Assembly (NCBI RefSeq): GCF_001953305.1
Contig: NZ_MTFE01000010.1
Location: forward strand, 874,512 to 923,671
Origin: Cnuella takakiae
GTDB taxonomy: Bacteria > Bacteroidota > Bacteroidia > Chitinophagales > Chitinophagaceae
DNA length: 49,160 nucleotides
Direction of reading: 5' to 3'
Below, piece after piece: positions 17,063 through 34,174 of the stretch (position 1 is its first letter; every line of letters begins with the position of its first letter). The position numbers were made by a program, and so were the translations under genes. The notes beneath the pieces are model-generated. The model had not been told where the DNA came from. It saw only the letters and a program-made list of their open reading frames with translations, and made no database searches.

Positions 17063-17134
17063 GGCCCGGTAGTTCAATGGATAGAATAGGAGTTTCCTAA
17101 ACTCTAGATACAAGTTCGATTCTTGTCCGGGCTA
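17063..17134 (+). tRNA. tRNA-Arg (CCU anticodon)
   Basis: A full cloverleaf folds here: 7-bp acceptor (closing pair G1-U72), D stem GTTC/GAAT, anticodon stem GGAGT/ACTCT with loop TTCCTAA (anticodon CCT), T arm ACAAG-TTCGATT-CTTGT and discriminator A73. CCA is not encoded. The 3' part (17112-17135) is the left half of the 24-bp duplication that bounds the integrated element, so the gene remains complete after insertion. Confidence 0.95.
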
Positions 17135-17135
17135 C
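17112..17135 (+). other. attL of the integrated element (24-bp tRNA-Arg 3' end repeat)
   Basis: The 24 bp from the T-arm to the base after the discriminator of tRNA-Arg are repeated exactly at 34304-34327. The flanks differ on both sides. The two copies enclose the whole foreign segment with an integrase at one end, which identifies them as the attachment sites. Confidence 0.95.
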
Positions 17136-17146
17136 AAATAAACAGT

Positions 17147-17186
17147 AAAAGGCTTTGTAAGTCAATAACTTATCAAGCCTTTTTTT
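17147..17186 (+). terminator. Element-borne terminator for tRNA-Arg
   Basis: AAAAGGCTT at 17147-17155 pairs with AAGCCTTTT at 17175-17183 across a 19-base loop and ends in seven T. It lies just inside the left attachment site and replaces the host terminator that now stands beyond the right site. Confidence 0.7.
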
Positions 17187-17189
17187 GAT

Positions 17190-17210
17190 TGTGGTACACT
17201 CTGTGGTACA
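17190..17210 (+). repeat. Left inner end repeat (two TGTGGTACA words)
   Basis: Two copies of TGTGGTACA, 12 bp apart start to start, make a 21-bp block that recurs at 34175-34195 in the same orientation with two mismatches. The block lies 54 bp inside attL and just before the first cargo gene. Integrase arm sites or a promoter operator are both possible. Confidence 0.75.
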
Positions 17211-17258
17211 ATGAGGATTGGAATAATGCAGATATCTTTAATCCATTCAAACCAAAAC

Positions 17259-18344
17259 ATGTTAGACTTCCGTAATATCATTGTTGAGCGCATGATCATG
17301 CATCAAATTAATGCAAAGGTTGACCCTCAGGACCATGCTACTGCAGTTTACGATGCATCCCTATTAGAGCACGACGATTCAGTTTTAAGTATAATTAAAG
17401 TACGTCTAATAGATGCAGCTGGGAAACGATCTAAAGCTTTTGAATTAGAAATTGAACGAACCGATGAAGGTTCTTTTGTTGCGCTTACAAGGGACCTTAA
17501 AACTAAAACCGAACCGGAGTTTATAGAGGTTAGTTGTCGAATAGCCGACTTACTTGCGGAGAGCCAAACAAGAACGAGCATTCCAGGTGGGTTCATTATT
17601 TTACTTCAATGCACTGATGAGATTGATAATACGGCCATTTACATAGTTATCAAAGCAGAGCCACATGAAGCATTACAGAGACTGGAAGGACAATCTCAAA
17701 TATCATTGCTTAAAAAAGTTTTTTTGAGTCCTTCACAAAAGCTATTCAAAATTGGAGTTCTGTTTGAAAAAGTGATCGATGGTGATGAGGTTGATTTAAA
17801 TGATATTAATACCCAATTCGGATGTTTTCTGTTTGATGATCAATTTAGGGCTGTCTCACAACCTGCCGAATATTTCTATAAAGACTTTTTGGGTTTCAGC
17901 ACAAGTAAAAATAGTAAAATACAGTCTCAGCGGTTTTATGATAAAACAGAAGTTTTTATAAAAGAAAACGTTGATGAGTTCAATCAACAATCAGATCTGC
18001 TAAATGCTCTCAAGATAGAATTTACTACTAATCAAGAAACGCTGATTACCCCATTCGACTTTGCTAATAGATACATACCAGTTGAGCAAAACTTAAGGGG
18101 ACGATATATTGCCGAGATAGTCAATGAGCTTCCTCCGTCCATTGAAAAGGATGATGCTTTGATCAAAACTAGGTTGACTAATGTAAAAGTTGATTTTCCT
18201 AATAAAATCAAGATTTCTGGGCCGAATGATAGTTTTTTAGAGAGTGTGCAGTTTTTGGATTCAAATGAGTTAGGTGAGATTGATCTGAATGAGGAGGGTT
18301 ATACTTTAATCAGAATCAAAGGAAGACCTTACAGAGATGAATGA
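17259..18344 (+). CDS. Nucleoid-associated protein, NdpA/YejK (37-kDa) family
   Basis: The 361-residue protein resembles the NdpA/YejK family: an N-terminal IIVERMIMHQINAK strand-helix, the VYDASLLEHDD loop, YFYKDFLGF near residues 205-215, an LLNALKIEFTTNQETLITPFDFANRYIP segment, and C-terminal strands (KIKISGPNDSFLESVQF; GYTLIRIKGRPYRDE). Family members bind the nucleoid; some occur in mobile elements beside immunity genes. The start at 17259 (MLDFRN) is preferred because it places the conserved strand at the N-terminus; an in-frame ATG at 17211 directly abuts the end repeat. The last 8 bp overlap the next gene, so the two are translationally coupled. Codon use is much more AT-rich than in the host genes. 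Confidence 0.75.
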   Translation: MLDFRNIIVERMIMHQINAKVDPQDHATAVYDASLLEHDDSVLSIIKVRLIDAAGKRSKAFELEIERTDEGSFVALTRDLKTKTEPEFIEVSCRIADLLAESQTRTSIPGGFIILLQCTDEIDNTAIYIVIKAEPHEALQRLEGQSQISLLKKVFLSPSQKLFKIGVLFEKVIDGDEVDLNDINTQFGCFLFDDQFRAVSQPAEYFYKDFLGFSTSKNSKIQSQRFYDKTEVFIKENVDEFNQQSDLLNALKIEFTTNQETLITPFDFANRYIPVEQNLRGRYIAEIVNELPPSIEKDDALIKTRLTNVKVDFPNKIKISGPNDSFLESVQFLDSNELGEIDLNEEGYTLIRIKGRPYRDE

Positions 18345-19317
18345 AATCGAAGACAAATTAGCAAACGAATTCAGGGAAATAGGTAGCGACTTGCAGCGTT
18401 GGGGGAGGATTGTAGATGGCCTATTAACTCAAGAACTTTTTAAAGAAATTCCCAACCAAGATTTAATTAAAATAGCTCCATCATTCCGCCTTAAATCAGA
18501 GAAGTCTTATTTATATAAGGTCTTGTATCGAAATAAAATCTATGCTGAGCCGTTATTAGAGGTTGAAGATAAGGTTGGTACGAGAGTTGTCGTTCTTAAG
18601 TCTGATCAAATAGATCTTATTGGGCAAAGAGTATTATCTTACGAAGGGTGGATTGCTAAAATAACGAAAGAGCCTTTACAACAAATTGAAGATCAACCTA
18701 AAATGTTTGATTACCAATCACTTCATATTGTTGTATACCCAGTAAGGCAGGAAGAGTGGAGCTCAACAAAAAAAGAGATTCTTACCTGTGAGATCCAAAT
18801 AAGAACACTGCTCCAACATGCTTTTGCAGAGGTAAGTCACGACAGCACCTACAAAGGTGCTTATAGAAACGACTCACAACTGCATAGGCTTTTAGCCAAG
18901 TCAATGGCTTTAATGGAAAGCACTGACGATTATTTCTGTCAAGTATACAATTTAATGGCAGACGAGAGGAGAAACTATATGGTTTTAACTAACGAATTAA
19001 TAAAGCTTTACAAGGAGTTCGATCCTGAATTCAGCAAGTCGTCAGTAGACTATGACCTCACGTTCAAAGTATATGAATCGTTAGGGAGTGAACCAATTAA
19101 TGTAAACGAATTAGAAGCTTTTATTCATAAAGAAAATAAAGATTTAAAAAGAGCTATACGGCCTAAAAATGGGCTTTTATTCGAACAGCCTATTATTCTT
19201 CTTATAGCTTACTTTGTTTACAACAACGATCCCGCAATCAAGGAGAAGTGGCCCTTAACTCAAGATAGCCTTAAAAATGTCTACAATTCACTGAATATGT
19301 CTTTTGATCACTACTAA
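18337..19317 (+). CDS. RelA/SpoT-type nucleotide pyrophosphokinase, no hydrolase domain
   Basis: The 326-residue protein contains a RelA/SpoT synthetase domain at residues 45-175. Visible catalytic positions are R51-x-K53 and S57/K61 (ATP site), D78 in EDKVGTRVVV (metal), Y126-QSLH (G loop; the usual NGY is FDY), E152-IQIRT and H161-AFAEVSHD. All synthetase residues are present. There is no HD hydrolase domain upstream (only a 45-residue helical lead) and no TGS/ACT domain, so it resembles a small alarmone synthetase with a 150-residue helical C-terminal extension of its own. The activity would transfer pyrophosphate from ATP to a guanine nucleotide, adenine nucleotide or tRNA end. Coupled to the NdpA-like gene (8-bp overlap) and convergent with the SLATT gene (stop codons overlap by 3 bp). 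Confidence 0.8.
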   Translation: MNEIEDKLANEFREIGSDLQRWGRIVDGLLTQELFKEIPNQDLIKIAPSFRLKSEKSYLYKVLYRNKIYAEPLLEVEDKVGTRVVVLKSDQIDLIGQRVLSYEGWIAKITKEPLQQIEDQPKMFDYQSLHIVVYPVRQEEWSSTKKEILTCEIQIRTLLQHAFAEVSHDSTYKGAYRNDSQLHRLLAKSMALMESTDDYFCQVYNLMADERRNYMVLTNELIKLYKEFDPEFSKSSVDYDLTFKVYESLGSEPINVNELEAFIHKENKDLKRAIRPKNGLLFEQPIILLIAYFVYNNDPAIKEKWPLTQDSLKNVYNSLNMSFDHY

Positions 19318-19796
19318 CTTTCTGCAAGGATCTTTTTTGTTTTCTCCCATGTTTTCGCTTTTATAGATGGAGCATTTTCAGATAATTTGTCTATTCGCTC
19401 CCTTATCTTGCTGATTTCTTCCCTGGAGAGGTCATCCAGATTACCACTTGCTATTATTTCTTCTACAAGCCTCCTTATACTCCCAGCTTGAGCTGCAGTA
19501 CTTCTATGAAGTTCAGCCCTTTCATTGAATCTTAAAAACGTTTGGATACTTGAAAGTACAGCAGCAGCAACACTAATTAGTCCTGTGGCAATTTTGAAGT
19601 AAATATTTACATCCTTTGATAAAGTTGCGAAAACCGATGTGCCTACAAAAGTGGTGAGAATTACAACTGGTACTCCTAACTTATAATTAAGTGAGCCAAG
19701 GGGTTTTGCTGCTTCATAATGGCTCGATTGAGTTTCCCTCAGCCTTTTGTGCCACCTTCTTAATAATTCATCCTTTGTTGCTGGAATTTCATTCAT
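19314..19796 (-). CDS. SLATT-type two-transmembrane effector-like protein
   Basis: The 160-residue protein has an N-terminal basic helix (LLRRWHKRLRETQSSHYEAA), two transmembrane helices (about 40-59 and 66-85) and then the diagnostic cytoplasmic helix SIQTFLRFNERAELHRSTAA and a long charged coiled tail. This layout is that of the SLATT domain (SMODS and SLOG-associated 2TM effector), predicted to form membrane pores when triggered by nucleotide second messengers. It lies tail to tail with a RelA/SpoT-type synthetase gene. A pore-forming role here is inference from the family. Confidence 0.7.
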   Translation of the reverse strand: MNEIPATKDELLRRWHKRLRETQSSHYEAAKPLGSLNYKLGVPVVILTTFVGTSVFATLSKDVNIYFKIATGLISVAAAVLSSIQTFLRFNERAELHRSTAAQAGSIRRLVEEIIASGNLDDLSREEISKIRERIDKLSENAPSIKAKTWEKTKKILAES

Positions 19797-19884
19797 CTTG
19801 TCCTAAGGTTAAATTCAATATAGTACAGGGAAAACAGACCATTAAACACTAAAGGTGCAAATTATTTACAAAGGGTTCTTTAAA

Positions 19885-20100
19885 TTAAAGCCTAGTTTTT
19901 ATTTCTCCATTCTTTTTCTCATATCTAGCAAAGTATTCTACCAGTGCTACTTCGATCACATCTTTGATCTTCAGCCGGTCCCAGTAGGCAACATTTCTGA
20001 TTTTTTCTAGAAGTTCTGTTTTCATGATGAAGGTAGCTCGCTCTTCACCTGCTTTTGTGCCCACCTGGCTGGATTTTGAAGAGAAGTTTTGGTTTAGCAT
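19885..20100 (-). CDS. Small RHH-like regulator (paralogue 1)
   Basis: The 71-residue protein has a disordered N-terminus of about 20 residues and then ERATFIMKTELLEKIRNVAY-WDRLKIKDVIEVALVEYFARYEKK. The strand followed by two helices fits a ribbon-helix-helix DNA-binding protein. It shares the core [R/E]TFI-x-[K/R]-x-[D/E]L-x-EKI-[R/K]-[N/D]-VAYWDR with the protein at 20904-21212. A 10-bp inverted repeat (20127-20160) sits between it and the divergent gene, a likely operator. Confidence 0.65.
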   Translation of the reverse strand: MLNQNFSSKSSQVGTKAGEERATFIMKTELLEKIRNVAYWDRLKIKDVIEVALVEYFARYEKKNGEIKTRL

Positions 20101-20126
20101 AGCTGAAAATTAATCCATAACCATGT

Positions 20127-20160
20127 GAAAAGTAATCCTTGAAAACACATATTACTTTTC
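20127..20160. promoter_or_regulatory. Inverted-repeat operator candidate between divergent genes
   Basis: GAAAAGTAAT (20127-20136) and ATTACTTTTC (20151-20160) are perfect 10-bp arms separated by 14 bp, centred between the RHH-like gene (minus, start 20100) and the gene at 20206 (plus). The natural candidate ligand is the RHH-like protein. Confidence 0.55.
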
Positions 20161-20205
20161 ATTAACAACAATCAAGAACCATAAATTGGAGGTTAAAACC
20201 TTCTT

Positions 20206-20883
20206 ATGAAACAAGAGCGTCCACCTAAATTTTACATCAAAGCCTTTGAGGAGTTTATTGGAAAGAAGCTGCAAAAGGGCGAGTATAAATATGAACGAAT
20301 TGAAGGGCATACCGATCTGCTTTACGAAGGGGTGACGTATAGGATATCCTCCTACGAAGATCTAGTGCAGGACTTCACCCAATATTTTGAAAGAGAAAGC
20401 TATGATGAAATCACTACGCAAGTGCCTGAGCAATTGTGGGATCTGATGCTTGACCAGGTTGAAGGTTATTCGTCCGGTCAAATCATTGTTGGAATTTACA
20501 AGGCGTGGAGAGGATACTGGTACAATGAACGTGATAGATTTAAAGATCCGGAAACTTTCAAACGTTCGAAGCAGGAGTCTTTCGAAGATTTGCAGGTGTT
20601 AATAGAGGCTTATAAAGAGGACACTGATAAGCTAGTTGAATTTGCCTATGCAATCAGCGACTTTGTTATACTTCCTTGCATTGCGATGTTTATCAAATCA
20701 ACTTACGATGATTTGGAAAGCTTTGTGGAAGACAGTGTAACCATATTGATGTCGGAGTGCGGGGAATACCTTACAATGGGCGAAACCTTCGAGGAAATTT
20801 ATCTTCCAGAAGCTGAGAACGAAATCAGCCATTTCATTATTTATAATCCTGTCAACGATTTAGAAGAATGCGACCAAGAGTAG
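20206..20883 (+). CDS. Unknown acidic protein, 225 aa
   Basis: I recognise no family. The protein is acidic, with a mixed N-terminal part (FYIKAFEEFIGKKLQKGEYK; DLLYEGVTYRISSYEDLVQD) and a mainly helical C-terminal half (LQVLIEAYKEDTDKLVEFAY; DFVILPCIAMFIKSTYDDLE). One moderately hydrophobic stretch (FAYAISDFVILPCIAMFI) could be a buried helix. It is divergent from an RHH-like gene and probably controlled through the shared inverted repeat. Confidence 0.6.
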   Translation: MKQERPPKFYIKAFEEFIGKKLQKGEYKYERIEGHTDLLYEGVTYRISSYEDLVQDFTQYFERESYDEITTQVPEQLWDLMLDQVEGYSSGQIIVGIYKAWRGYWYNERDRFKDPETFKRSKQESFEDLQVLIEAYKEDTDKLVEFAYAISDFVILPCIAMFIKSTYDDLESFVEDSVTILMSECGEYLTMGETFEEIYLPEAENEISHFIIYNPVNDLEECDQE

Positions 20884-20903
20884 ACTGGCAGTTGTTAGTT
20901 GGT

Positions 20904-21212
20904 TCATTCTTTCCTTTTACGGCCAGAATTGCTGCGCAGCTTTTCCCTCTCTTTTACTTCATCCGGCCGGCTCTTGATGATTCCATTGCTTTTTTCATAT
21001 CCGTCGATAAATGAGGAAAGAGCCATCTCAATGGTTTCTTTGAGTAGCTGCCTATCCCAATAAGCTACGTCTTTAATCTTTTCCATTAAGTCTACCCTTA
21101 CAATGAAAGTTTCCCTGTCATAATCTGGTGAAGACAGGCCTTTTTTAGTGGAGCTGACTTCAAATTCTGGAGTAGGTGGGGTAGCGGTTTTGCTTTTGGT
21201 AGCTTTTGCCAT
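20904..21212 (-). CDS. Small RHH-like regulator (paralogue 2)
   Basis: The 102-residue protein has a basic, disordered N-terminus, then the RHH-like core DRETFIVRVDLMEKIKDVAY-WDRQLLKETIEMALSSFIDGYEK and a basic tail (RPDEVKEREKLRSNSGRKRKE). The core aligns without gaps to the protein at 19885-20100. Two such paralogues flank the unknown gene at 20206, converging on it from one side. Confidence 0.65.
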   Translation of the reverse strand: MAKATKSKTATPPTPEFEVSSTKKGLSSPDYDRETFIVRVDLMEKIKDVAYWDRQLLKETIEMALSSFIDGYEKSNGIIKSRPDEVKEREKLRSNSGRKRKE

Positions 21213-21274
21213 ACAGGATAAAAGTAAGCAGCTTTGTTTATTTTGTTTACTGAAAGGGTGCTAAAATTGTAAAA

Positions 21275-21298
21275 GGCCCCGCCAGGAATGGCAGGGCC
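21275..21298 (-). terminator. Terminator of the 174-residue gene (minus strand)
   Basis: A 10-bp GC-rich stem (GGCCCCGCCA / TGGCAGGGCC, one mismatch) with a 4-base loop is followed on the minus strand by TTTT. It lies 46 bp after the stop of 21345-21869. Confidence 0.75.
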
Positions 21299-21344
21299 GT
21301 TTTGATATGCCTAATAGAAACTAATTTCTATTCCGTTTTGATTA

Positions 21345-21869
21345 TCAGATTGCCTTCTTCATCAATTCGATTTTAGCCCACTGAGTATAAGTTTTTTTCA
21401 TGTCCTCCAACTGTTCATTCGTATAATCGCAGGTGTCCCATCTTTGGAGGTCATATAGTTTCATATGTGCTCGCGGTTCGAAGCCATTGATATCTTTAAA
21501 AAAGTGAATAAGCCTGTCAATATCGATAGCCATCTGGCTCGGCTCATGTCCCATTTCCACCAGTATCTGGGAAACCTCGGGGTTTATCAACAATTTCCGG
21601 ATGTCCTCCAAAAACATACCTAGCCACTCTATTTGGAAAGAATCATATACCATCCTCCCTTCTTCTGTAAGGTGTGGCTTTCTTAAAAGCACATGTAAAT
21701 AGAACATTGGCGATCTGTCAAATGACAGTACATCCAAATACTTGCTTATGGCATCTTCAGCCCCCCTTTTCAAACGCGGATCCGTTTCCAGTTCTGCGGG
21801 TTGAAAGCTAGGCATGTTGTTAACTGCATTGGCGAGCTGATCCGCGCCATTTGTGGAAGTCTTTGTCAT
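21345..21869 (-). CDS. Unknown helical protein, 174 aa
   Basis: I recognise no family. The protein has a polar N-terminus (25 residues), a helical bundle (DPRLKRGAEDAISKYLDVLS; FQIEWLGMFLEDIRKLLINP; MAIDIDRLIHFFKDINGF) and a tryptophan/tyrosine-rich C-terminus (KLYDLQRWDTCDYTNEQLED). Directly upstream of its ATG is a 17-bp sequence that recurs at 27144-27160. Confidence 0.6.
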   Translation of the reverse strand: MTKTSTNGADQLANAVNNMPSFQPAELETDPRLKRGAEDAISKYLDVLSFDRSPMFYLHVLLRKPHLTEEGRMVYDSFQIEWLGMFLEDIRKLLINPEVSQILVEMGHEPSQMAIDIDRLIHFFKDINGFEPRAHMKLYDLQRWDTCDYTNEQLEDMKKTYTQWAKIELMKKAI

Positions 21870-21870
21870 T

Positions 21871-21887
21871 GTAGTAATTATTAGGTA
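21871..21887 (-). repeat. 17-bp repeat copy 1 (TACCTAATAATTACTAC)
   Basis: On the minus strand TACCTAATAATTACTAC ends 2 bp before the ATG at 21869. An exact copy lies at 27144-27160 on the plus strand, and a looser version (ACCTAATAATGATAAC) leads into the divergent gene at 22044. Confidence 0.6.
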
Positions 21888-22043
21888 CGGCTAAAATAAT
21901 ACTAGTAAACAAAATAAACAAAAATTACCAGGAACCTTTTTTTACTTTGTTTACTTAATTAACAGAACATTTCAGCAGCTATGCTTTTGAAAGGGGATAT
22001 GTGCTTTTATTTTTATGGAACCTAATAATGATAACCAATTAGC

Positions 22044-22295
22044 ATGCATACAATACTGCCTTACCAATTCAACTGCTTAGATATCTGCGAACAAATAGCC
22101 ACTACTGAAAAACATGGTGTTTGCCTGGATGTGGCCAGGTATGAAGGATCCCATAAAATAGGCTTATTTGACCTTTGGGGTTACTATGTGGAAGTTTGGG
22201 TGGATAGTCGGAGTGAGAAAGTAGTAAAGCTGTATGCCTTTCAAAACATGGCCCGCCTAGATCGTTTTCTGATTCCTATTCCATTGGTATTTTAA
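22044..22295 (+). CDS. Unknown small protein, 83 aa
   Basis: No family recognised. The protein is compact, with GVCLDVARYEGSHKIGLFDLW and YYVEVWVDSRSEKVVKLYAF in a probable beta-hairpin layout. It is followed 18 bp later by another small gene whose start has the same context (TTAGCATGCAT), which suggests duplicated or shared leader sequences. Confidence 0.55.
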   Translation: MHTILPYQFNCLDICEQIATTEKHGVCLDVARYEGSHKIGLFDLWGYYVEVWVDSRSEKVVKLYAFQNMARLDRFLIPIPLVF

Positions 22296-22313
22296 TCGCT
22301 TGGATATTTTAGC

Positions 22314-22697
22314 ATGCATTTCTCACTCACTTTAACCCATGGTATCTACACCTTCCGCTTCGATGTGGAGATGGCTGGCAAGGATAAGAACTTCGAGCGC
22401 TGGCGCCTGATTGCTGGCGATCGGGTTGTAGTGCTTCAAAGTAATCGGCCTATGCTCCAGGCGAGGAGATTGAAAAAGAAGCCTGTCACCTGGAAAGTTG
22501 TAGAGGGGGAAGTAAAAGATGAAAAAGCGCTGGCTAAAGTGTGCAAGGCTATTGAGGATCACTTGGCAGGTCCACCACCACCGCCTCCAGCACCATCACC
22601 CTTCCCGGATTTGCCAGCACGATGGATATTAAACCAACCGAATGAAAGGAAGAAAGGGGGAAGTAGTGGCCCACCGATTGGCGAAAGGGGGAAATAA
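22314..22697 (+). CDS. Unknown small protein with proline-rich tail, 127 aa
   Basis: The first 90 residues look like a small mixed fold (LTLTHGIYTFRFDVEMAGK; WRLIAGDRVVVLQSNRPML; KPVTWKVVEGEVKDEKALAK) and the remainder is low complexity (GPPPPPPAPSPFPDLPA) with a glycine/lysine end. The last bases run up to the terminator of the permuted tRNA on the other strand. No family recognised. Confidence 0.55.
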   Translation: MHFSLTLTHGIYTFRFDVEMAGKDKNFERWRLIAGDRVVVLQSNRPMLQARRLKKKPVTWKVVEGEVKDEKALAKVCKAIEDHLAGPPPPPPAPSPFPDLPARWILNQPNERKKGGSSGPPIGERGK

Positions 22698-22698
22698 A

Positions 22699-22728
22699 GA
22701 AAGAGCCACCCAGATGGATGGCTCTTTC
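22699..22728 (-). terminator. Terminator of the permuted tRNA transcript (minus strand)
   Basis: A 13-bp stem (10 bp GAAAGAGCCA / TGGCTCTTTC plus T-G and CC/GG) with an ATCT tetraloop is followed on the minus strand by TTTATTT. No T-tract exists on the plus strand, so it works for the minus-strand transcript that carries the tRNA halves. Confidence 0.8.
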
Positions 22729-22732
22729 GTAA

Positions 22733-22839
22733 TACAGTCCAGTGCGTTTGCCGCTCTGCCACATTCCCAATTTGAAGCGTTAGGTACATTGTGTGGGAAT
22801 GGAGGGATTCGAACCCCCGTAGTCAAATGACGCTGGATT
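22733..22839 (-). tRNA. Circularly permuted tRNA-Tyr (GUA): 3' half precedes 5' half
   Basis: Reading the minus strand, 22839-22794 is a tRNA 3' half: anticodon-loop bases AA, stem TCCAG, a long variable arm, T arm GGGGG-TTCGAAT-CCCTC, acceptor strand CATTCCC and A73. After a 25-base intervening sequence (22793-22769) comes the 5' half, 22768-22733: acceptor GGGAATG, a D arm and stem CTGGA with CTGTA. Acceptor strands pair 7/7, anticodon stem 5/5, and joining the halves gives the 7-base loop CTGTAAA with anticodon GUA at exactly positions 34-36. The variable arm and D loop match bacterial tRNA-Tyr (type II). One D-stem pair (A12-C23) is mismatched. CCA is not encoded. It has its own promoter and terminator. 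Confidence 0.8.
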
Positions 22840-22862
22840 AGAGTTTGACCAACGCTTCGATA

Positions 22863-22893
22863 CAAAAGTAGTAAACCGACCCATACATTCCAA
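22863..22893 (-). promoter_or_regulatory. Promoter of the permuted tRNA (minus strand)
   Basis: On the minus strand TTG (22893-22891) is followed after 20 bp by TACTTTTG (22870-22863), a full match to the Bacteroidota consensus TTTG-N19/20-TAnnTTTG apart from the first T. Transcription should start near 22857, about 18 bases before the tRNA 3' half. Confidence 0.7.
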
Positions 22894-22927
22894 TTTTTTT
22901 GCATGTTTTTTTAAAAAAAACATTTTT

Positions 22928-22961
22928 CTTTCACTTTTAGTGAAAGTAGTTGCTATATTTG
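22928..22961 (+). promoter_or_regulatory. Operator and -7 element upstream of the XRE regulator region
   Basis: CTTTCAC (22928-22934) and GTGAAAG (22940-22946) form a 7-bp inverted repeat with a 5-base spacer. It is followed at 22954-22961 by TATATTTG, a perfect TAnnTTTG match. The repeat covers the -33 region, where a repressor would block transcription; the XRE protein encoded downstream is the natural candidate. Confidence 0.65.
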
Positions 22962-23026
22962 TAATGCTGATTGGCCATCAGAATCTAAAAATTGAAATTT
23001 AAAACAACGTAAAAATTAAAAACGGT

Positions 23027-23140
23027 ATGTCACAGCTAAAACAATGCAGCCACCTCCCTAATTACAGGGAAGTGTTTAAAATCATTATCAACGATGGAAC
23101 GAGTTCGATTAATTACCCTGCTAGAGGGAATAGCTTCTAA
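23027..23140 (+). CDS. Possible 37-residue leader peptide
   Basis: A short frame (MSQLKQCSHLPNYREVFKII and 17 more residues) begins after the promoter at 22954 and overlaps the next gene's start by 47 bp in another frame. There is no family match; it may be a leader or simply chance. Confidence 0.25.
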   Translation: MSQLKQCSHLPNYREVFKIIINDGTSSINYPARGNSF

Positions 23141-23357
23141 GGCACAAGATGAAAACTTAAAATGTGAGATTGAGGCTATAATCAAAGAGTTAAAAATTTC
23201 AAATGATGATGAGGGAGAAGGAAAGGATAATCACAGTCCGCCCTTATCTCAAAACAAAACATTAGCAAAAAGAATTGCTGATGCCGTTGGAAAGTTTTTC
23301 GGTAGGGTTGGGTCCAGTATTGCTGCTGACCAGCTTTCCGACGCTTTCTTCGAATAA
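23094..23357 (+). CDS. Unknown small protein, 87 aa
   Basis: The N-terminal half is an amphipathic helix (RVRLITLLEGIASKAQDENLK; CEIEAIIKELKISNDD), followed by a polar linker and a second helix (NKTLAKRIADAVGKFFGRVG) that looks amphipathic and basic. No family recognised. It is 17 bp before the XRE gene and shares its promoter, so it may be an antirepressor or partner; inference only. Confidence 0.5.
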   Translation: MERVRLITLLEGIASKAQDENLKCEIEAIIKELKISNDDEGEGKDNHSPPLSQNKTLAKRIADAVGKFFGRVGSSIAADQLSDAFFE

Positions 23358-23374
23358 GATGGAGGTTAATAATT

Positions 23375-23668
23375 ATGCAATTAGGAGATGTAATAGCATC
23401 ATTCCGTCGCAGAAAACGCATCGACCAAAAAGGGATGGCAGCCCAACTTGGCATATCTGTTAGCTATCTTTCACAAATAGAGAATAGCAACAAGATGCCA
23501 AGTGGGAAGCTCCTGAACAAAATTTCAGAAGTATTGGGAATTCCTGTTACTACGCTTTTGTTTGAGACAATGGATAAATCTAGTTTCAATGATCCTGAAA
23601 TTCAAGAGCTGTTCAATCGTGCTAAACCGATTATGGACGAAATGATTAATATTTTGCTTGCGGAATAA
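23375..23668 (+). CDS. XRE-family helix-turn-helix regulator
   Basis: The 97-residue protein is a phage-type repressor domain: LGDVIASFRRRKRIDQKGMA then the HTH AAQLGISVSYLSQIENSNK (residues 22-40) and the fifth helix LLNKISEVLGIPVTTLLFE. The C-terminal 35 residues are helical and probably dimerise. A strong Shine-Dalgarno (GGAGGT, 8 bp before the ATG) is present, rare in this phylum. It should control the divergent promoters at 22863-22961 and so could set the lysogeny state of the element. Confidence 0.85.
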   Translation: MQLGDVIASFRRRKRIDQKGMAAQLGISVSYLSQIENSNKMPSGKLLNKISEVLGIPVTTLLFETMDKSSFNDPEIQELFNRAKPIMDEMINILLAE

Positions 23669-23690
23669 AAGTTAGAGTTAATAATAAATT

Positions 23691-23717
23691 CAAAAGCCCC
23701 ACATGAAGATGCAGGGC
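23691..23717 (-). terminator. Terminator after the tape-measure gene (minus strand)
   Basis: A 9-bp stem (GCCCCACAT / ATGCAGGGC, two wobbles) with a 4-base loop is followed on the minus strand by TTTTGAATTT. It lies 35 bp after the tape-measure stop. Confidence 0.65.
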
Positions 23718-23751
23718 GTAAAGGATGAGAGAAACAGAAAATAAGGTTGTA

Positions 23752-25761
23752 TTACAAGCGGCTTCTGCGGTTGATTTCCCGGATGCGTTCCTGTGCCCCG
23801 GTCACATCTTTTTCTAAAACAAATGCCTTTATAGCCCGATTTCCGAGGTCGTTTATGCTTTGGTTGTCCAGCCGGGTTTGTGCCGTTGCAAGGGTAGGCT
23901 GCAGGGGCGCCTGGGTTGGTATTGCTCCTGTCTTCAGGTTGGGAGTAGACAACCCGCCCCCAGTTCCGTTCCCTGAAGAAAGTATCTGCTTTGCCTTAGC
24001 AATGTTGGCCAGGATCCGCACCAATCCGGTAGCAAACTGGAGTGCACCGGCGCCGCCGAATGTTACCGCGTTCGTTGGATTGGATTCAGAGTTTTTCACC
24101 AGGGCAGATACTGCCAGTGCGGTATCCGTTGCGATCTGCGCAAGGGCAAGGGCTTTGCCTATTTTGGTTTGCTGGCCAATTATGTTGGACAACTGCCCCA
24201 ACAGGTCGCCGGTTGCCGCTACAAGGGCCGCTTTGGTGTCATATTCGGTCTTGTCGATATTGCTACGGGCTTTGGACGATGCAGCCAGCAGGGCCGTCTT
24301 TTGGGCCTCGTTGAGGCTTGTATCAGCCAGTATCTGCTTTTCTACAGTATCAAGGAACTGGCGCTTACTCTGGGCGCTCATTCCTTCCATATTGGCAAAG
24401 TCGTCAAAGGCTGCCAGGCGCTTCTGGTAGTTGTCGTTGATCAGTGCCGCGGTGTTTTCATTGTCGGACCTTTCGCGCTCCATGCGGGCATTGTTAGCCT
24501 CGATATCCTTTGCTTCCTGTTCCTGCCGGTACTTATCAGCAATGGCACCTTTTGCGTTAAAATACCATTGGTCCAACTCAATCAAGGATTGCCCGCCGTC
24601 TTTTAGCAGCTGGGCCTGTTTGTCATAGTCCTGCTGGAGCTTTACCAGGTCGGAGGCCATACCCCCGCCGGCTGCATCCACCGCGTTGCCATCTGCTAGC
24701 TGCCGGTTAAGTTGCTGTGCCTGCTTGCGCTGGTTAGCCATTTCCTCATCCCGGCGCTTCTGGTCGGCAATGGCTCTATCATTTATCTCCCGTTGCTTTT
24801 GCTGGGCTTTTTCCCGCTGCGTTGTTTCGTACTGCAGGCGGGCTACTTCCTTGTTGGTGCGCTCTTCCTGGATGCTATTCAGCAAAGCCTCATTATCTGC
24901 GGTCTTGCCTACTGACTTTTCCATCATTCGGATGCGCTCATCATAGTTGCGCTGCTCCAAGTTGAACAGTTCCTTATCTGATGCGCCCCGAGCTTTTGCC
25001 CGGGCAACATCCAGCTTTTGCAGTTGATTATTGAAAGCAAGGCCAGCCTGCAGGGCTTGCGATTCCGATTCCTGCATGGCCTGTTTTAGCTGTTTCTGGG
25101 CCTCCGCTGCCTCTTTACTGCGGTTGGTAAAGGCCATCAGCTTTTCGACCGCAAAACCGATGGCAACAACCAGTAAACCGATACCAGTTGCAGCAATGGC
25201 TCCCTTCAAAACCTTGAAGGATGTTGATGTGGCCACCACTTCTATACCGAACAGCCTTTGCGCCTTTGACGCCAGCCCGGTGGCCAGAGTGTCGGCCTTG
25301 CGGTAGGCGGTGGTGGATTGGATAACGGCTGACAGGTTCTTAAATCCCTGCATGGCATCAAGTACCTGGTCAATGCCTTGGGAAATAGCCATGGCAGCCT
25401 GTACTTTCAGCAAGGCCTTGTTGAGTTCTTCGGATTCTACACCAGTTAAGGCAATAGCACCCTGTAGGGCAGAAAAGCCGCCGGCAACCCCGGAAATGGC
25501 CTGCCCAAAGGCTACAAACTTTTTATCTGGATTGAAGGCATCCACCAGGCTGCTGCTATCTCCAAGTGCATCATTAAGGGATGCTACTTTTTTGGCAGCG
25601 GCTACGGCTTCTTTGGAAAATTCACCGTATTGGTCCTGCAGGCGCAGTAGATCCTCGCGGGCCTCGCGCAGCTGGGTGCGGTAACTTTTAACCGATTCCT
25701 GGGCGGCCGCGCCATCCGTTTTGATGGTGGCGCCTATTACTATCTTTTGCTGATCTGACAT
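23752..25761 (-). CDS. Phage tail tape-measure-like protein
   Basis: This 669-residue protein starts with QQKIVIGATIKTDGAAAQES and a long coiled coil (SYRTQLREAREDLLRLQDQY), has hydrophobic membrane-like segments (AFGQAISGVAGGFSALQGAI; AATGIGLLVVAIGFAVEKLM), then another long charged coiled-coil/low-complexity block (about residues 225-480) and a C-terminal Ala/Gly-rich helical part (IGQQTKIGKALALAQIATD). This is the layout of tail tape-measure proteins: coiled coils with central transmembrane-like helices, whose length sets the tail length. A 669-residue tape measure implies a fairly short tail. It is the last gene of the minus-strand tail set. Confidence 0.75.
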   Translation of the reverse strand: MSDQQKIVIGATIKTDGAAAQESVKSYRTQLREAREDLLRLQDQYGEFSKEAVAAAKKVASLNDALGDSSSLVDAFNPDKKFVAFGQAISGVAGGFSALQGAIALTGVESEELNKALLKVQAAMAISQGIDQVLDAMQGFKNLSAVIQSTTAYRKADTLATGLASKAQRLFGIEVVATSTSFKVLKGAIAATGIGLLVVAIGFAVEKLMAFTNRSKEAAEAQKQLKQAMQESESQALQAGLAFNNQLQKLDVARAKARGASDKELFNLEQRNYDERIRMMEKSVGKTADNEALLNSIQEERTNKEVARLQYETTQREKAQQKQREINDRAIADQKRRDEEMANQRKQAQQLNRQLADGNAVDAAGGGMASDLVKLQQDYDKQAQLLKDGGQSLIELDQWYFNAKGAIADKYRQEQEAKDIEANNARMERERSDNENTAALINDNYQKRLAAFDDFANMEGMSAQSKRQFLDTVEKQILADTSLNEAQKTALLAASSKARSNIDKTEYDTKAALVAATGDLLGQLSNIIGQQTKIGKALALAQIATDTALAVSALVKNSESNPTNAVTFGGAGALQFATGLVRILANIAKAKQILSSGNGTGGGLSTPNLKTGAIPTQAPLQPTLATAQTRLDNQSINDLGNRAIKAFVLEKDVTGAQERIREINRRSRL

Positions 25762-25795
25762 TTCCTTACTGTTTTAGATTCTGGGTTGGTAAGTG

Positions 25796-26470
25796 TCAGA
25801 GGGATTGTATGCGGTTAATCGAATCCTGCACCTCTTCAGGGGAGTAGCCTAATTCGTGGCCGCGCTGGATCATTTCTTCCTGGTGCTGCTTTACTATTTC
25901 GGCGGCATGGCGCACCGAACCTTTGAGGTAGTACTGCCAAATGGCTATAACATCAATGAAGCGGGCCTGCTTTAAGTCTTCGCTGTATTTCTCAACATCC
26001 TTAAGATTGTGCTTACCTCGGAAAAAAATGCCGCAGATACGCCTTGAGGGGCGCACCATCAGTGCAACCAGGTAGTGCATCCTTGTAAAGAAGTCGCCTG
26101 CCTGTTCGGGCCTGAATGCATGCAGGGCTCTAAAGGAGGCCACGGTGGGCAGGTTGCTGGGCAGCAGCTCCAGATAGTACCAATTACCATTTGCCTTTAT
26201 GTAGCGCCTGGTGTTGGCTTCTGGATAAAGTAGGGTGAATTGCGCCAGATTCCTTTGCATAACATAGTATTCACCTACAGGGAGTGAGTTTAGCTGTTCA
26301 TCACTGATGTTGTAGGCGATCTTCACCATTTCGGAGTTGATCCACTCGGCGGCAGCATTGATCTGCCCTTCTGTTTTATCCTTTATCGCAGCGGTGTGGA
26401 ACAAGTAAAGGCGCTGGTATTGCTCCAGCGTCATGGTTTCTTTCAGGTAATTTATTTCTGTGTGTCTCAT
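25796..26470 (-). CDS. Probable tail-module protein, 224 aa (chaperone position)
   Basis: I recognise no domain. The protein is soluble, with MRHTEINYLKETMTLEQYQR at the start, a mixed central part (GEYYVMQRNLAQFTLLYPEA; YIKANGNWYYLELLPSNL) and a helical end (EIVKQHQEEMIQRGHELGYS). Its position directly upstream of the tape-measure gene (34 bp) is where tail-assembly chaperones normally stand; that is the only support for a role. The start at 26470 is preferred because a terminator hairpin occupies the longer frame upstream. Confidence 0.55.
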   Translation of the reverse strand: MRHTEINYLKETMTLEQYQRLYLFHTAAIKDKTEGQINAAAEWINSEMVKIAYNISDEQLNSLPVGEYYVMQRNLAQFTLLYPEANTRRYIKANGNWYYLELLPSNLPTVASFRALHAFRPEQAGDFFTRMHYLVALMVRPSRRICGIFFRGKHNLKDVEKYSEDLKQARFIDVIAIWQYYLKGSVRHAAEIVKQHQEEMIQRGHELGYSPEEVQDSINRIQSL

Positions 26471-26485
26471 GCCCTTAAATAGAAA

Positions 26486-26509
26486 AAGGCCCGCAGCGTT
26501 GCGGACCTT
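26486..26509 (-). terminator. Terminator between tail-module genes (minus strand)
   Basis: A 10-bp stem (AAGGCCCGCA / TGCGGACCTT, one mismatch) with a GCGT loop and five T on the minus strand follows the stop of the 26520-26930 gene by 11 bp. Confidence 0.75.
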
Positions 26510-26519
26510 CAGCACCATA

Positions 26520-26930
26520 TCAGGCGTTTAAAAACTTCCATATGATAAAGTTTATGATCGACCCCTCATGAGGCGGGCCAACGGAAATAGAGGTTGAAGG
26601 CAGAATGTTTTTAACCTTGGTCTTCCCGTCTCCTGCGTAAATACCTGTTCCGTCAAGATCCACGAACACTTCATTTTCACCCAGTACATGATCTGGGCTC
26701 ATTTCCTTGTCTTCCGTTGGCATCATCAGCTTTCTAACCCTTCTGGGTCTGTCCGGGGATGCAAATAATTTGTTTATAGGCGGGAGGGTTTTCAACTGGG
26801 TTATGCCATCACCTACATAAGCCCACCCGTTGTCTTCACAGATCACTACTTCGTTAAGTGCTAGAATGGTAGTATCTGGGATGTCTACATTCACATATTC
26901 GGCATCAGCCGGGATTTTTATACTTCTCAT
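26520..26930 (-). CDS. Phage tail-fibre-like protein with hyaluronidase/Mtd-type repeats
   Basis: The 136-residue protein contains two copies of a short motif: LNEVVICEDNGWAYVGDGIT-x-LKTLPP and LGENEVFVDLDGTGIYAGDG-KTKVKNILPS. Motifs of the form L-x-x-GE-x-x-x-D-...-x-GDG-x-x-x-x-x-LP occur at the N-terminus of phage tail fibres and tropism proteins. No receptor-binding domain follows; the protein is cut to the two repeats and a short hydrophobic end (IINFIIWKFLNA). Confidence 0.6.
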   Translation of the reverse strand: MRSIKIPADAEYVNVDIPDTTILALNEVVICEDNGWAYVGDGITQLKTLPPINKLFASPDRPRRVRKLMMPTEDKEMSPDHVLGENEVFVDLDGTGIYAGDGKTKVKNILPSTSISVGPPHEGSIINFIIWKFLNA

Positions 26931-27090
26931 TTATTCCTGTTTTATTCCTGTTCTTCACAAAGCAAAAGGCAACAGCTTGGGGGTGATTTTGCTGCTGTTG
27001 TGCCCGGGCCAAGAGGTATCGATTTAGGATTTCAATATTGCGCATGGAGTGGGCGCCAGCAGGTTTGCCTTTATTCTTTTTGGCTTGCAT
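26905..27090 (-). CDS. Possible small basic protein, 61 aa
   Basis: A short frame starting at ATG 27090 overlaps the tail-fibre-like gene by 26 bp. The product is basic, with MQAKKNKGKPAGAHSMRNIE and a helix (ILNRYLLARAQQQQNHPQ). No family recognised; the terminator upstream of it and the lack of a visible promoter leave it uncertain. Confidence 0.35.
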   Translation of the reverse strand: MQAKKNKGKPAGAHSMRNIEILNRYLLARAQQQQNHPQAVAFCFVKNRNKTGINEKYKNPG

Positions 27091-27102
27091 GTATAGAGGA
27101 GC

Positions 27103-27141
27103 TTTGAAAAATAAAGAGGGCCACCCTAGAAAGAGTAGCCC
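27103..27141 (-). terminator. Terminator downstream of the 226-residue gene (minus strand)
   Basis: A 7-bp stem (GGGCCAC / GTAGCCC, one wobble, 27118-27124 and 27135-27141) is followed on the minus strand by TCTTTATTTTTC. Confidence 0.65.
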
Positions 27142-27143
27142 GT

Positions 27144-27160
27144 TACCTAATAATTACTAC
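27144..27160 (+). repeat. 17-bp repeat copy 2 (TACCTAATAATTACTAC)
   Basis: Exact copy of the leader sequence found upstream of the 21345-21869 gene. Here it has no gene on the plus strand downstream. The gene-free stretch 27161-27282 shows nothing else. Confidence 0.6.
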
Positions 27161-27282
27161 GTCTCCGCAGTAACCAAAACAAAGGTATGTACTTCTTAAC
27201 TGGGGCTTAATTAGTACCGGTGCTGACTGCCATGGTGACTAGCGCTCCGGCAATAGAATTTTAACCATCCACTTTCAACCCA

Positions 27283-27963
27283 TTACGCTACAGCATTGCG
27301 GTTAAAATGCAAACTACCCGTGCCAGGGTTCATAATGGCGCTATAGATGGCAGGATTGATAACACCCCTGCCTACTGAGTCTTTATAAAGCAGTACTTGG
27401 GCAGGGAAAGCATTCAAGCCGCCAGCTGTTCTGCTTTTTGTTTTCAGCAGGGCATCAAAATCATTATAGGCCTGCAGGAAGGCATTGTACTTTTCCAACA
27501 CCTCTATTTCTTCCGGAGTGATGGCATAAGTCCGCGATCCATCCAAGTAGGTTTCCAAGGTGGCTTCCTTCACCCTCACCTCTTTACCTTCCAGTTCATA
27601 CATCGTAAGGAACAATGATAGCCGGTTGCCGCCAATCTTTATCACGCGGGCAGCTGCTGCCTTTAATTCGGAGATGTCGGGGAGTTCTAGCTGGTTGATG
27701 ATGCTTTCCTTTTTCATCCTGAAGCCGGCAACAATTGGAGCTTCAATAGTGCTGGCTACTTTATCCCTTACTACGGTTTCCGGGTCTTCAGCCAGGCTTT
27801 TCAACTCCGATATATCAAGACTACCCACGCCAAGGGCATGAAATGCGCCTACCATAGCAGACAGGGCGCCGTGCAGGTCTTGTGTTACGATGCACTTAAT
27901 ACTGTCGATATTCTGACGATCCTCAAAGGCCAGCACAGGTCTGGCTTTAGTTGTTTTATTCAT
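27283..27963 (-). CDS. Unknown phage-like protein, 226 aa
   Basis: I recognise no domain. The protein has helical parts (IKCIVTQDLHGALSAMVGAF; ISELKAAAARVIKIGGNRLS), a central LFLTMYELEGKEVRVKEATL and a C-terminal hydrophilic end with YKDSVGRGVINPAIYSAIMN. Its start overlaps the stop of the 108-residue gene (TAATG) so translation is coupled. It lies at the head of the tail-gene set, where a neck or major tail subunit gene would be expected. Confidence 0.55.
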   Translation of the reverse strand: MNKTTKARPVLAFEDRQNIDSIKCIVTQDLHGALSAMVGAFHALGVGSLDISELKSLAEDPETVVRDKVASTIEAPIVAGFRMKKESIINQLELPDISELKAAAARVIKIGGNRLSLFLTMYELEGKEVRVKEATLETYLDGSRTYAITPEEIEVLEKYNAFLQAYNDFDALLKTKSRTAGGLNAFPAQVLLYKDSVGRGVINPAIYSAIMNPGTGSLHFNRNAVA

Positions 27964-28289
27964 TATTTGCGGTTTTTATTGCGGTCATATTCTTTTAGTA
28001 CTTCGATAATTTGGCGCCGGGCTTCTTCATTTGTAATCCTTCCACCAGGGGACGGCATGGGCCTGTTTTGTGATATCATCTGCACTGGCTTGGCCTGTTG
28101 GGGCGTCTTCCCTACTGAAGGCTGTTTCGGGGCTGCTATGGCCTTCTTTGTCGGGATGGGTGCTAGTGTCTGCTGAATGTGCAGCTTCAGATTCCTGAGC
28201 TTTTGGCGGAGGGGGAGTGCTTCCTGCCGCCGTCGCTCCTGTTCCCGTTCCACCTGCTCCACATACCGCTGGAGTAGATTCTTCTTCAT
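27963..28289 (-). CDS. Unknown basic coiled-coil protein, 108 aa
   Basis: The N-terminal 40 residues form a strongly charged helix (NLLQRYVEQVEREQERRRQE; ALPLRQKLRNLKLHIQQTL); the middle is Pro/Gln/Lys-rich and the end is a short helix (NEEARRQIIEVLKEYDRNKN). The stop codon overlaps the next start (TAATG), which argues that this frame is translated. For 263 bp it overlaps, in another frame, the RHH-like gene at 28027-28461. Confidence 0.55.
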   Translation of the reverse strand: MKKNLLQRYVEQVEREQERRRQEALPLRQKLRNLKLHIQQTLAPIPTKKAIAAPKQPSVGKTPQQAKPVQMISQNRPMPSPGGRITNEEARRQIIEVLKEYDRNKNRK

Positions 28290-28461
28290 CTTGTTTCTTT
28301 TTGGTGAGGTAATGCTCCAACAGCAGGCTGATACCTTGCTCGATTAGCCTGGACCGGCTCAGCCCTGTTTCCCTGGATAAGTCATTAAGTGCCATTTTCA
28401 CAGCAGGGGGCGTATATGCTGGGATCATTACGCGCTTATTTAGGGTTGCGGTTCGAGCCAT
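28027..28461 (-). CDS. RHH-domain protein with low-complexity tail (overlaps the next gene)
   Basis: The 144-residue product begins with a ribbon-helix-helix domain: LNKRVMIPAYTPPAVKMALN then DLSRETGLSRSRLIEQGISL and LLEHYL. After residue 57 it is low complexity (GAGGTGTGATAAGSTPPPPK). The tail reads the same DNA as the 108-residue gene in a different frame, so either this is a genuine overlapping pair or the tail is a by-product of the other coding frame. The RHH part stands outside the overlap and is well supported. Confidence 0.55.
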   Translation of the reverse strand: MARTATLNKRVMIPAYTPPAVKMALNDLSRETGLSRSRLIEQGISLLLEHYLTKKKQDEEESTPAVCGAGGTGTGATAAGSTPPPPKAQESEAAHSADTSTHPDKEGHSSPETAFSREDAPTGQASADDITKQAHAVPWWKDYK

Positions 28462-28553
28462 TTAGTAAGTTGTTTTCAGGGGTATATATAGAAATTCGCA
28501 TCTTGGAACAATAAAACAAGTTGTTTTATTAAAAAACTTTAAGGGCCACACGT

Positions 28554-28790
28554 GCACGCGTCAGATAGCGAGATATGATTTCCTAAACGCGCGAACAGAT
28601 AGTGGCATATGACTACACCCGCATGTAAGTGACCCACCAAAAACCTTCGCGCACGCGTCAGATACGGAGATATAATTTCTGACACGCGCGTATAGACCGG
28701 AAAAAAACCTTCAGAAGCACCGGTTTTCACAGTAACCTCACTGTTTCCCCACTGTTTTTTCAGAAAGCTGGCCATATACACGCGCGTAAT
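28554..28790. repeat. Iteron-like repeat region, gene-free
   Basis: The stretch 28462-28869 has no convincing gene. A 46-bp unit starting GCACGCGTCAGATA occurs at 28554 and 28651, 97 bp apart, about 80% identical, each ending in (A)CGCGCG; a further ACACGCGCGTA word lies at 28778-28788. The second copy can fold (GCGTCAGA with TCTGACACGC). ACTGTTT words follow at 28738-28757. The region lies upstream of the replication genes' side of the element and beside the RHH gene; an origin, partition site or regulatory RNA are all possible. Confidence 0.5.
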
Positions 28791-28869
28791 GACCCCTGAG
28801 AACTCTTCGTTGATGTGAAAGTTGGATCAGGAGATATCGAAGCCAAACCAATAATGGTAACTTCATTGC

Positions 28870-29082
28870 ATGCCCAATGTGGACGAATACCTCAAAGATT
28901 ATCTGCAGCAAAAGCATATCATCCTAAACATTGGATACACCATTTCCCACGCGCAATTAAAGGATATGCTGCTCGACTGGGCAGCCATAAGCGCAACGCA
29001 GACCAATGCCCACCAATACAAATACGGGAGCCGTTTACCGCTACAGGGAGGCGATAAAGACAAGCCAGCCCCGGATCAGTAG
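28870..29082 (+). CDS. Unknown small protein, 70 aa
   Basis: A short protein (MPNVDEYLKDYLQQKHIILN; IGYTISHAQLKDMLLDWAAI) with two helices and a polar end. No family recognised. It is 5 bp upstream of the next gene on the same strand, which supports coding. Confidence 0.45.
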   Translation: MPNVDEYLKDYLQQKHIILNIGYTISHAQLKDMLLDWAAISATQTNAHQYKYGSRLPLQGGDKDKPAPDQ

Positions 29083-29087
29083 CCGCA

Positions 29088-29750
29088 ATGCCTCGGGTGT
29101 TTTTCTATTTACCCTTGATGGCACAGAGTATCCGAAAAAATCAACGTAACCTTTTAGATTCTGGTTGGCTGGATAGCGCAGGATCTACCCGATCCACCGA
29201 GCCTATACAGTTTGATGCTACAGAAAAGAAGATGGTTGAATTGGCCATCACTTTTAAGAAGGTGGCAGAATCCGAACTTTCCAGGATAAACGCAGTCAAC
29301 AGCGGCCAGCTGGCGGATAGCATTCAGCTTACGGATGTAACCGAGAAGGGCGGGGTTTACTCGATTGATATGAAGGTGTTGTTTTATTATGCTTTCGTAA
29401 ATAAGGGCGTTCAGGGCCTTCAAAACAAATCTTACAACACACCCTTTACTTTCCGGCATTACCATGTAAGCAGGGCCTTTATGCTTAGTATCCGTAAATG
29501 GATGGAGCGGGAAGGGTTGAAAGCAACAACTAAAGAAGCCAGGAGAAATCCATTAGGCCAGGAGCGAAATGGGGTGAATTTTGAAACACGCACAAATGCC
29601 ATGGCGTATGCTATTGCTTTATCCATTAAAAAGAAAGGTCTGAAGCCTACGGGGTTTTGGGATAAGGCCGCCGATGAGACACGCAAGGAGGCTGCGGCCA
29701 CACTTGGCGATGCCGTGGCCATTGACATCGTAAATGCTATAATGCGGTAA
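29088..29750 (+). CDS. Phage virion-like protein (HK97 gp10-like?), 220 aa
   Basis: The protein has a helical N-terminus (TEKKMVELAITFKKVAESEL), a central LADSIQLTDVTEKGGVYSID-strand region, YYAFVNKGVQGL, and a C-terminal helical part with arginines. The combination of an initial long helix, 'NSGQLADSI' and 'YAFVNKGVQG' resembles tail-completion (HK97 gp10-like) proteins, but the match is weak. A second start at 29118 (MAQSIRKNQ) is equally possible. It is on the opposite strand to the tail set. Confidence 0.4.
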   Translation: MPRVFFYLPLMAQSIRKNQRNLLDSGWLDSAGSTRSTEPIQFDATEKKMVELAITFKKVAESELSRINAVNSGQLADSIQLTDVTEKGGVYSIDMKVLFYYAFVNKGVQGLQNKSYNTPFTFRHYHVSRAFMLSIRKWMEREGLKATTKEARRNPLGQERNGVNFETRTNAMAYAIALSIKKKGLKPTGFWDKAADETRKEAAATLGDAVAIDIVNAIMR

Positions 29751-29783
29751 TCCGAATGTTTACGCAAATCTTGAAAGTTCCCG

Positions 29784-31176: not shown

Positions 31177-31187
31177 TGGATTGATTA

Positions 31188-31563: not shown

Positions 31564-31640
31564 GCCCTTATATATTAAAAGGGCAGAATTGGAACAAAAA
31601 AGAGTGAAAAGGGGATAGTGAAGAATAAGTTAGTTGAATA

Positions 31641-31934: not shown

Positions 31935-32012
31935 TTGCGTTCTTTTACACAAATGGACAAAATCAAATAAAGCAAGTCAATTCCCCCGTACTGTTTGGGG
32001 GGACAGTTTTTT

Positions 32013-32816: not shown

Positions 32817-32851
32817 TATACAAGATGTTTATTGTAGTTGAAAGAATCAAA

Positions 32852-34135: not shown

Positions 34136-34174
34136 TGGTAATGGTTGAAACTAAAGCTATGAAAAAATACCCAA

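Follow-up and report, generated by a model that had tools for sequence, protein, structure and literature searches.

A permuted tRNA-Tyr(GUA) pattern on an integrative element of Cnuella takakiae and its possible maturation into an unsealed two-piece tRNA

The window, the whole 49,160-nt stretch of Cnuella takakiae DNA analyzed here, contains a 17.2-kb mobile element bounded by 24-bp repeats of the 3′ end of a tRNA-Arg(CCT) gene. These repeats, a tyrosine recombinase, and DnaC-like and replication-initiator ORFs mark the element as integrative and a permuted tRNA-Tyr unit within it as its cargo, bearing out the mobile-element location proposed by an earlier, sequence-only reading of this DNA. 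GC content falls below that of the flanks at about 16-24 kb and 30-36 kb. The features relevant to the unit are listed below.

17112..34327, no strand: integrated mobile element, 17.2 kb, with the 24-bp repeat of the tRNA-Arg(CCT) 3′ end at 17112-17135 and 34304-34327
22314..22697, plus strand: 127-aa ORF, function unassigned, convergent with the tRNA unit, with paralogues in the same genome
22690..22728, minus strand: terminator-like hairpin and T-rich tail, 13 pairs at 22728-22699, 4 nt past the 5′ half
22733..22768, minus strand: 5′ half of tRNA-Tyr, G1 to A36 (acceptor 5′ strand, D arm, anticodon-stem 5′ strand)
22769..22792, minus strand: linker, 24 nt, from the tRNA 3′ end to the tRNA 5′ end
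22793..22839, minus strand: 3′ half of tRNA-Tyr, A37 to A73 plus C (anticodon-stem 3′ strand, variable arm, T arm, acceptor 3′ strand)
22840..22862, minus strand: leader, from the transcription start predicted by promoter position to the 3′ half
22851..22858, minus strand: perfect 8-bp inverted repeat, arm in the leader; the linker contains the other arm, at 22774-22781
22863..22893, minus strand: promoter-like TTG-N20-TACTTTTG, directly upstream of the unit
22928..22946, no strand: perfect palindrome CTTTCACTTTTAGTGAAAG, single match in the window, separating the tRNA unit from the HTH operon
23375..23668, plus strand: HTH transcriptional regulator of the phage repressor type, divergent from the tRNA unit
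32852..34135, minus strand: tyrosine recombinase (integrase)

The HTH ORF has one relative only, at 30%, and the palindrome is a possible operator of this gene. ORFs 23094 and 23752 have no match among phage records. Relatives of the 127-aa ORF occur in 20 of 394 family genomes (E ≤ 1e-6), while its own genome gives eight matches, two of them overlapping, that is, seven places counting itself, some with internal stops. Its sole relative in viral contigs (L051) shows the same identities and window ranges as a stretch of the own genome (L144), so that it probably represents the same or a very near genome and is not independent. At its left end (17211-19796), the element encodes an NA37-like nucleoid-associated protein, a RelA/SpoT-domain protein and a SLATT_4 protein, possibly defence cargo.

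On the minus strand, the unit runs from the promoter-like site through a 23-nt leader, the 3′ half, the 24-nt linker, the 5′ half and four bases to the terminator-like hairpin. The 3′ half of a class II tRNA-Tyr(GUA) (22839-22793) lies 24 nt ahead of the 5′ half (22768-22733) of the same tRNA, with the intervening sequence between them, as in a permuted tRNA gene. The 5′ half terminates at A36, with the anticodon GTA at 22735-22733, and the 3′ half begins at A37, with neither gap nor overlap. When the halves are rejoined, the acceptor stem forms seven of seven pairs (eight of eight counting T-1:A73 of the inverted repeat), the anticodon stem forms five of five and closes the loop CTGTAAA, the T stem forms five of five including one G-U below a TTCGAAT loop, and the variable arm forms 3 bp. 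The D stem forms two of three pairs, with a mismatch at A12-C23; CCA is absent from the encoded 3′ half. The result is a cloverleaf with a long variable arm and a GUA anticodon, the characters of a tRNA-Tyr. ARAGORN calls tRNA-Tyr(gta) for the rejoined halves (83 nt) and, when the sequence is circularized, for the 107-nt stretch, but not for a longer 203-nt stretch. Neither half belongs to an adjacent intact tRNA, as ARAGORN reports only the tRNA-Arg at 17063-17135 in the window and none in locus L001.

Default ARAGORN and Rfam at its gathering threshold return only tRNA-Arg(CCT) from the window and miss the permuted gene, so that further cases may have been overlooked. A covariance model whose alignment contains the window sequence (R1) scores the locus at 106.3 bits. 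Because this model contains the very sequence it detects, a second one (R2) was built from seven other tRNA-Tyr genes permuted in silico, with the window left out. R2 matches 22839-22733 at 88.4 bits (E 3.6e-23), its sole match at E ≤ 1 within the window. Adjacent ordinary tRNAs are the natural false positive for a permuted-tRNA model; in 39 other tRNA-bearing loci, the best of 66 matches reached 58.7 bits, about 30 bits lower. The permuted match is not due to chance, and the permuted tRNA-Tyr pattern is confirmed as real and unusual. The earlier description of the locus, namely permuted halves, a break exactly between positions 36 and 37, stems that reassemble and a single D-stem mismatch, holds. 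Pair counts on one alignment (A1) were dropped as evidence, since four of its five rows are ordinary tRNAs permuted in silico.

Rfam at E ≤ 10 gives seven weak matches over 22600-23000. The ordinary tRNA model reaches 24.4 of the required 29 bits over 22892-22794, using an upstream GGAATG as its acceptor strand. The permuted tmRNA family (RF04321) matches partially, at 21.4 of 47 bits, over the core formed by T arm, acceptor, linker and acceptor; the match lies below the Rfam cut-off, and ARAGORN finds no tmRNA in the window. No group I intron appears among the seven matches or, at the gathering threshold, anywhere in the window. Other weak matches at the site, such as one to a plastid 3′UTR family that covers the T arm on the plus strand, were taken as chance.

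The Bacteroidota promoter consensus is TTG/TAnnTTTG. The consensus-type site that the sequence-only reading took for the promoter of the unit does lie directly upstream on the right strand, but sites of the form TTG-N19..21-TAnnTTTG number 2 in the window against 2.9 expected (mean of 40 first-order Markov sequences). The pattern is no commoner than chance, so that it is notable solely by its position. The terminator fares similarly. The 13-pair hairpin is called on the minus strand only, 4 nt downstream of the 5′ half, but terminator-like sites in 22000-24000 number 3 against 2.3 (sd 1.5) in shuffles. This hairpin also falls just beyond the stop codon of the convergent ORF at 22314-22697, which it may serve as well.

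In folding that does not consider pseudoknots, the permuted tRNA fold is the minimum when the leader is left off, save for a shifted D-arm pairing. With the 23-nt leader included (171-nt unit), a competing structure reaches -57.4 kcal/mol against -53.3 kcal/mol for the tRNA-like fold, the leader hairpin outcompeting the latter by about 4 kcal/mol.

The permuted locus occurs once in its own genome. Against 50,697 phage records and 72,556 plasmid records, blastn with 22690-22960 gave no match. Across 394 family genomes, a DNA search with 22690-22900 returned the own locus and six short matches elsewhere, of which four fall within tRNA-Tyr genes that are intact and the other two, without a tRNA, in the terminator part. 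The exact 18-mer at the start of the 5′ half and the leader-linker pattern are absent from the viral contigs; the 23-mer from T arm to acceptor occurs in three of them, each time in a contiguous tRNA-Tyr. Pattern scans for a T arm, a D arm and GTA followed by a non-A at position 37, which are blind to other break points and isotypes, gave 29 stretches in viral contigs (seven found earlier included) and five in genome contigs; read with ARAGORN and by eye, none was judged permuted. For one candidate that looked permuted at first (L121), R1 at E ≤ 0.1, Rfam at E ≤ 1 and ARAGORN all came up empty.

R1 was also run on overlapping sets of genomes, scoring only the first-look candidates of each genome (9 in family, 9 in order, 150 in genus and 10 in phylum genomes). 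It matched 346 of the 394 family genomes at E ≤ 0.01, with a best non-window score of 52.6 bits. At E ≤ 1e-9 it matched 5 of 396 order genomes and 7 of 390 phylum genomes, own genome included in both counts (best other phylum match 53.6 bits); among 18 genus genomes, the own genome alone matched at E ≤ 1e-8. ARAGORN found ordinary neighbouring tRNAs at each of the 37 R1 loci that were read (29 non-window family, two further order and six phylum loci). R1 gave no match at E ≤ 0.1 at five other places of the 127-aa ORF in the own genome (L110, L116-L119). The phage, plasmid, viral-contig and genus-to-phylum genome searches, in collections that may leave out records close to the own genome, yielded no second copy or relative of the permuted unit; with no homologue found, there are no paired changes across the halves. 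Viral contig L047 carries a Thr-Tyr-Gly array twice, each with a tRNA-Tyr 5′ half only (4502-4466 and 4183-4147, minus strand). These halves end at or just past the anticodon, where the search pattern favoured breaks, and a single pattern search through the 72-kb record turned up no 3′ half to match.

In the own genome, a Thr-Tyr-Gly-Thr array includes an intact tRNA-Tyr that differs clearly from the permuted one; this array and the promoter type fit a Bacteroidota host. At E ≤ 0.01, the rejoined tRNA-Tyr body has matches in 309 phage records, and 29 of these align over 80% or more at a single place. Those listed, 20 in number, show 72-77% identity over 93-100%; seven are annotated as tRNA-Tyr, five as tRNA-Leu, and eight are without feature or annotation. 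Unlike the Cnuella unit, all 20 are in one piece with the halves in the usual order. Seven plasmid records also matched the rejoined body, and in two the match spans 80% or more of the query.

Neither RtcB nor the PF09414 RNA ligase was found in the own genome, rated 99.68% complete; they are present in nine and six of 14 control genomes, respectively. PF13563 (2_5_RNA_ligase2), whose members are often phosphodiesterases, has three matches. The ligase search of the genome covered these three families. On the element, a Pfam scan of 20 ORFs gave no ligase, in agreement with the earlier remark that none is visible. The leader/trailer junction, judged by duplex energy only, shows no pairing of the bulge-helix-bulge (BHB) kind, its best duplex being -2.6 kcal/mol. 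The absence of RtcB and PF09414 and the weak leader/trailer pairing suggest that sealing is unlikely.

We tentatively favor, giving it a little less than even weight, a genuine permuted tRNA-Tyr(GUA) gene that is expressed and whose transcript matures into a two-piece tRNA, unsealed and with a nick in the anticodon loop. The proposed pathway would begin with a single transcription unit of about 170 nt on the mobile element. In this transcript, as the model match and the fold suggest, the linker would be closed into a loop by the acceptor stem, and the anticodon stem would close the whole molecule. RNase P and 3′ nucleases act on the acceptor-T arm. Cleavage by RNase P at G1 and by 3′ tRNA nucleases behind A73, followed by CCA addition, would remove the linker; this step is modelled on the known substrate rules of these enzymes and on two-piece tmRNA. 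The two pieces would stay paired through the 7-bp acceptor and 5-bp anticodon stems without sealing. The predicted product is a Tyr-type tRNA nicked at 36/37, with the 5′ leader and the 3′ terminator hairpin hanging from its anticodon loop. Such a tRNA could perhaps accept Tyr or interact with enzymes directed at tRNA-Tyr, and should not decode.

A precedent is the two-piece tmRNA found in Alphaproteobacteria, in Cyanobacteria and in phages, Melnitz among them. It derives from permuted genes with a linker between the acceptor strands and works unsealed in bacteria; its pieces, probably processed by RNase P and tRNase Z, remain base-paired (PMC3985003, PMC9004378). The same route is proposed here. 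Unlike a tmRNA, the Cnuella unit has a full tRNA-Tyr anticodon arm and its nick would lie in the anticodon loop, while its RF04321 match is below threshold and ARAGORN calls no tmRNA. Circularly permuted tRNA genes are described from Cyanidioschyzon merolae, prasinophyte algae and Thermofilum pendens, where they are transcribed as one linear RNA and are said to mature via archaeal/eukaryotic splicing machinery (PMC3978253). The 3′ half likewise comes first in these, the intervening sequence is short (1-74 nt there, 24 nt here) and the junction is often in the anticodon loop, at 37/38 compared with 36/37 here (PMC3978253). However, they employ a BHB motif, splicing endonuclease and ligation, whereas the present unit shows weak leader/trailer pairing and no RtcB in a bacterial host.

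The two-piece reading draws on the 88.4-bit match, the complementarity of the halves, the framing promoter-like and terminator-like signals, the seeming absence of splicing routes, the tmRNA precedent and the partial permuted-tmRNA match. Against it stand the missing homologues, the A12-C23 mismatch, the competing leader fold, and promoter and terminator patterns at chance frequency. An unsealed product needs no exact 36/37 break, so this reading leaves the exactness unexplained. The sub-threshold ordinary tRNA match over 22892-22794 would also fit a decayed ordinary copy. Almost equal weight goes to an inert remnant, in which tandem duplication of a phage-type tRNA-Tyr, or insertion of a small circle, was followed by loss of the outer halves and nothing useful is made. 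The same mismatch, the single copy and the broken 5′ half on L047 are compatible with this history. An imperfect 13-nt direct repeat (22885-22897/22761-22773, 85%) copies the start of the 5′ half upstream, and 22893-22840 plus the next A aligns to a 5′ half, globally at p 0.017-0.025 (shuffles, four scoring schemes) and locally at p 0.03-0.51 (six settings). Nevertheless, the shuffle value of about 0.02 is weakened by a position control, in which this likeness, given equal freedom of start, is equalled at 5.6% of 33,642 element positions and, in register without the borrowed A, at 33%; the downstream side is equalled at 25% of 16,846 control positions. The likeness to decayed outer halves being weak under these controls, tandem duplication is no more than a plausible origin. 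A remnant also demands two independent losses at the same nucleotide, a coincidence estimated at roughly 1 in tens, and the signals that closely frame the unit argue against it.

The exact junction, which restores the 7-nt loop, would be accounted for by a functional sealed tRNA-Tyr, joined at 36/37 by an unrecognised ligase and supplementing the host pool, for instance against defences that deplete tRNA-Tyr, such as retron-Eco7 PtuAB. The features of Tyr identity, G1-C72, A73, GUA and a long variable arm, are all kept, and the three PF13563 matches also speak for it. Phage tRNA-Tyr is known to counteract retron-Eco7 (PMC11555353). This explanation is nonetheless improbable, given a nearly complete genome that lacks RtcB and PF09414, the weak leader/trailer pairing, and the absence of a ligase among the scanned element ORFs and of a group I intron match. 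Slighter still is the chance of a regulatory or recombination feature, in which the leader-linker helix and tRNA-like arms would form a small regulatory RNA beside the repressor, or a tRNA half would be a relic attachment site. The divergent HTH gene and the palindrome do adjoin the unit, and the leader-linker duplex, at -16.5 kcal/mol, is matched by none of 2000 leader shuffles. That result is weakened by the position control, where pairing as good occurs at 229 of 16,767 element positions (1.4%) and 980 of 19,624 window positions, and a perfect 8-mer at 528 of 98,120. Moreover, the attachment site of the element is tRNA-Arg, not tRNA-Tyr.

In the available portions of the open-access sources consulted (PMC3978253, PMC4033280, PMC10085705, PMC3985003, PMC9004378, PMC5733544, PMC6581868, PMC8450103, PMC5478533; subscription papers mostly lie outside these), no bacterial permuted tRNA gene was found and the bacterial cases named are tmRNAs; a table in a 2014 review carries a dash for bacteria under permuted tRNA genes (PMC4033280). 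If expressed, the Cnuella unit would be the first such gene found in that literature. From a bacterial case it would follow that splicing machinery is not required for permutation to arise, and perhaps to persist; such a case would also link permuted tRNAs with two-piece tmRNAs through one route of RNase P and 3′ nucleases without sealing. The fullest form of the two-piece reading is rather unlikely. In it, the unit would be the first permuted tRNA gene of a bacterium to be both expressed and maintained by selection, and its tmRNA-like processing without splicing endonuclease or ligase would give a stable, chargeable tRNA-Tyr nicked in the anticodon loop from birth, of use to the element either in carrying Tyr without decoding or in decoying nucleases directed at tRNA-Tyr.

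Two other altered tRNA contexts were seen during the searches. In Colwellia, tRNA-Asn arrays (L087, 52-123; L089, 3924-3994) contain a seemingly decayed copy interrupted in the anticodon region. The own genome carries an altered tRNA-Leu copy with a changed anticodon loop (L041, C1:5162126-5162209), perhaps a decayed integration-site duplicate; a further copy of the 127-aa ORF lies 2.6 kb away.
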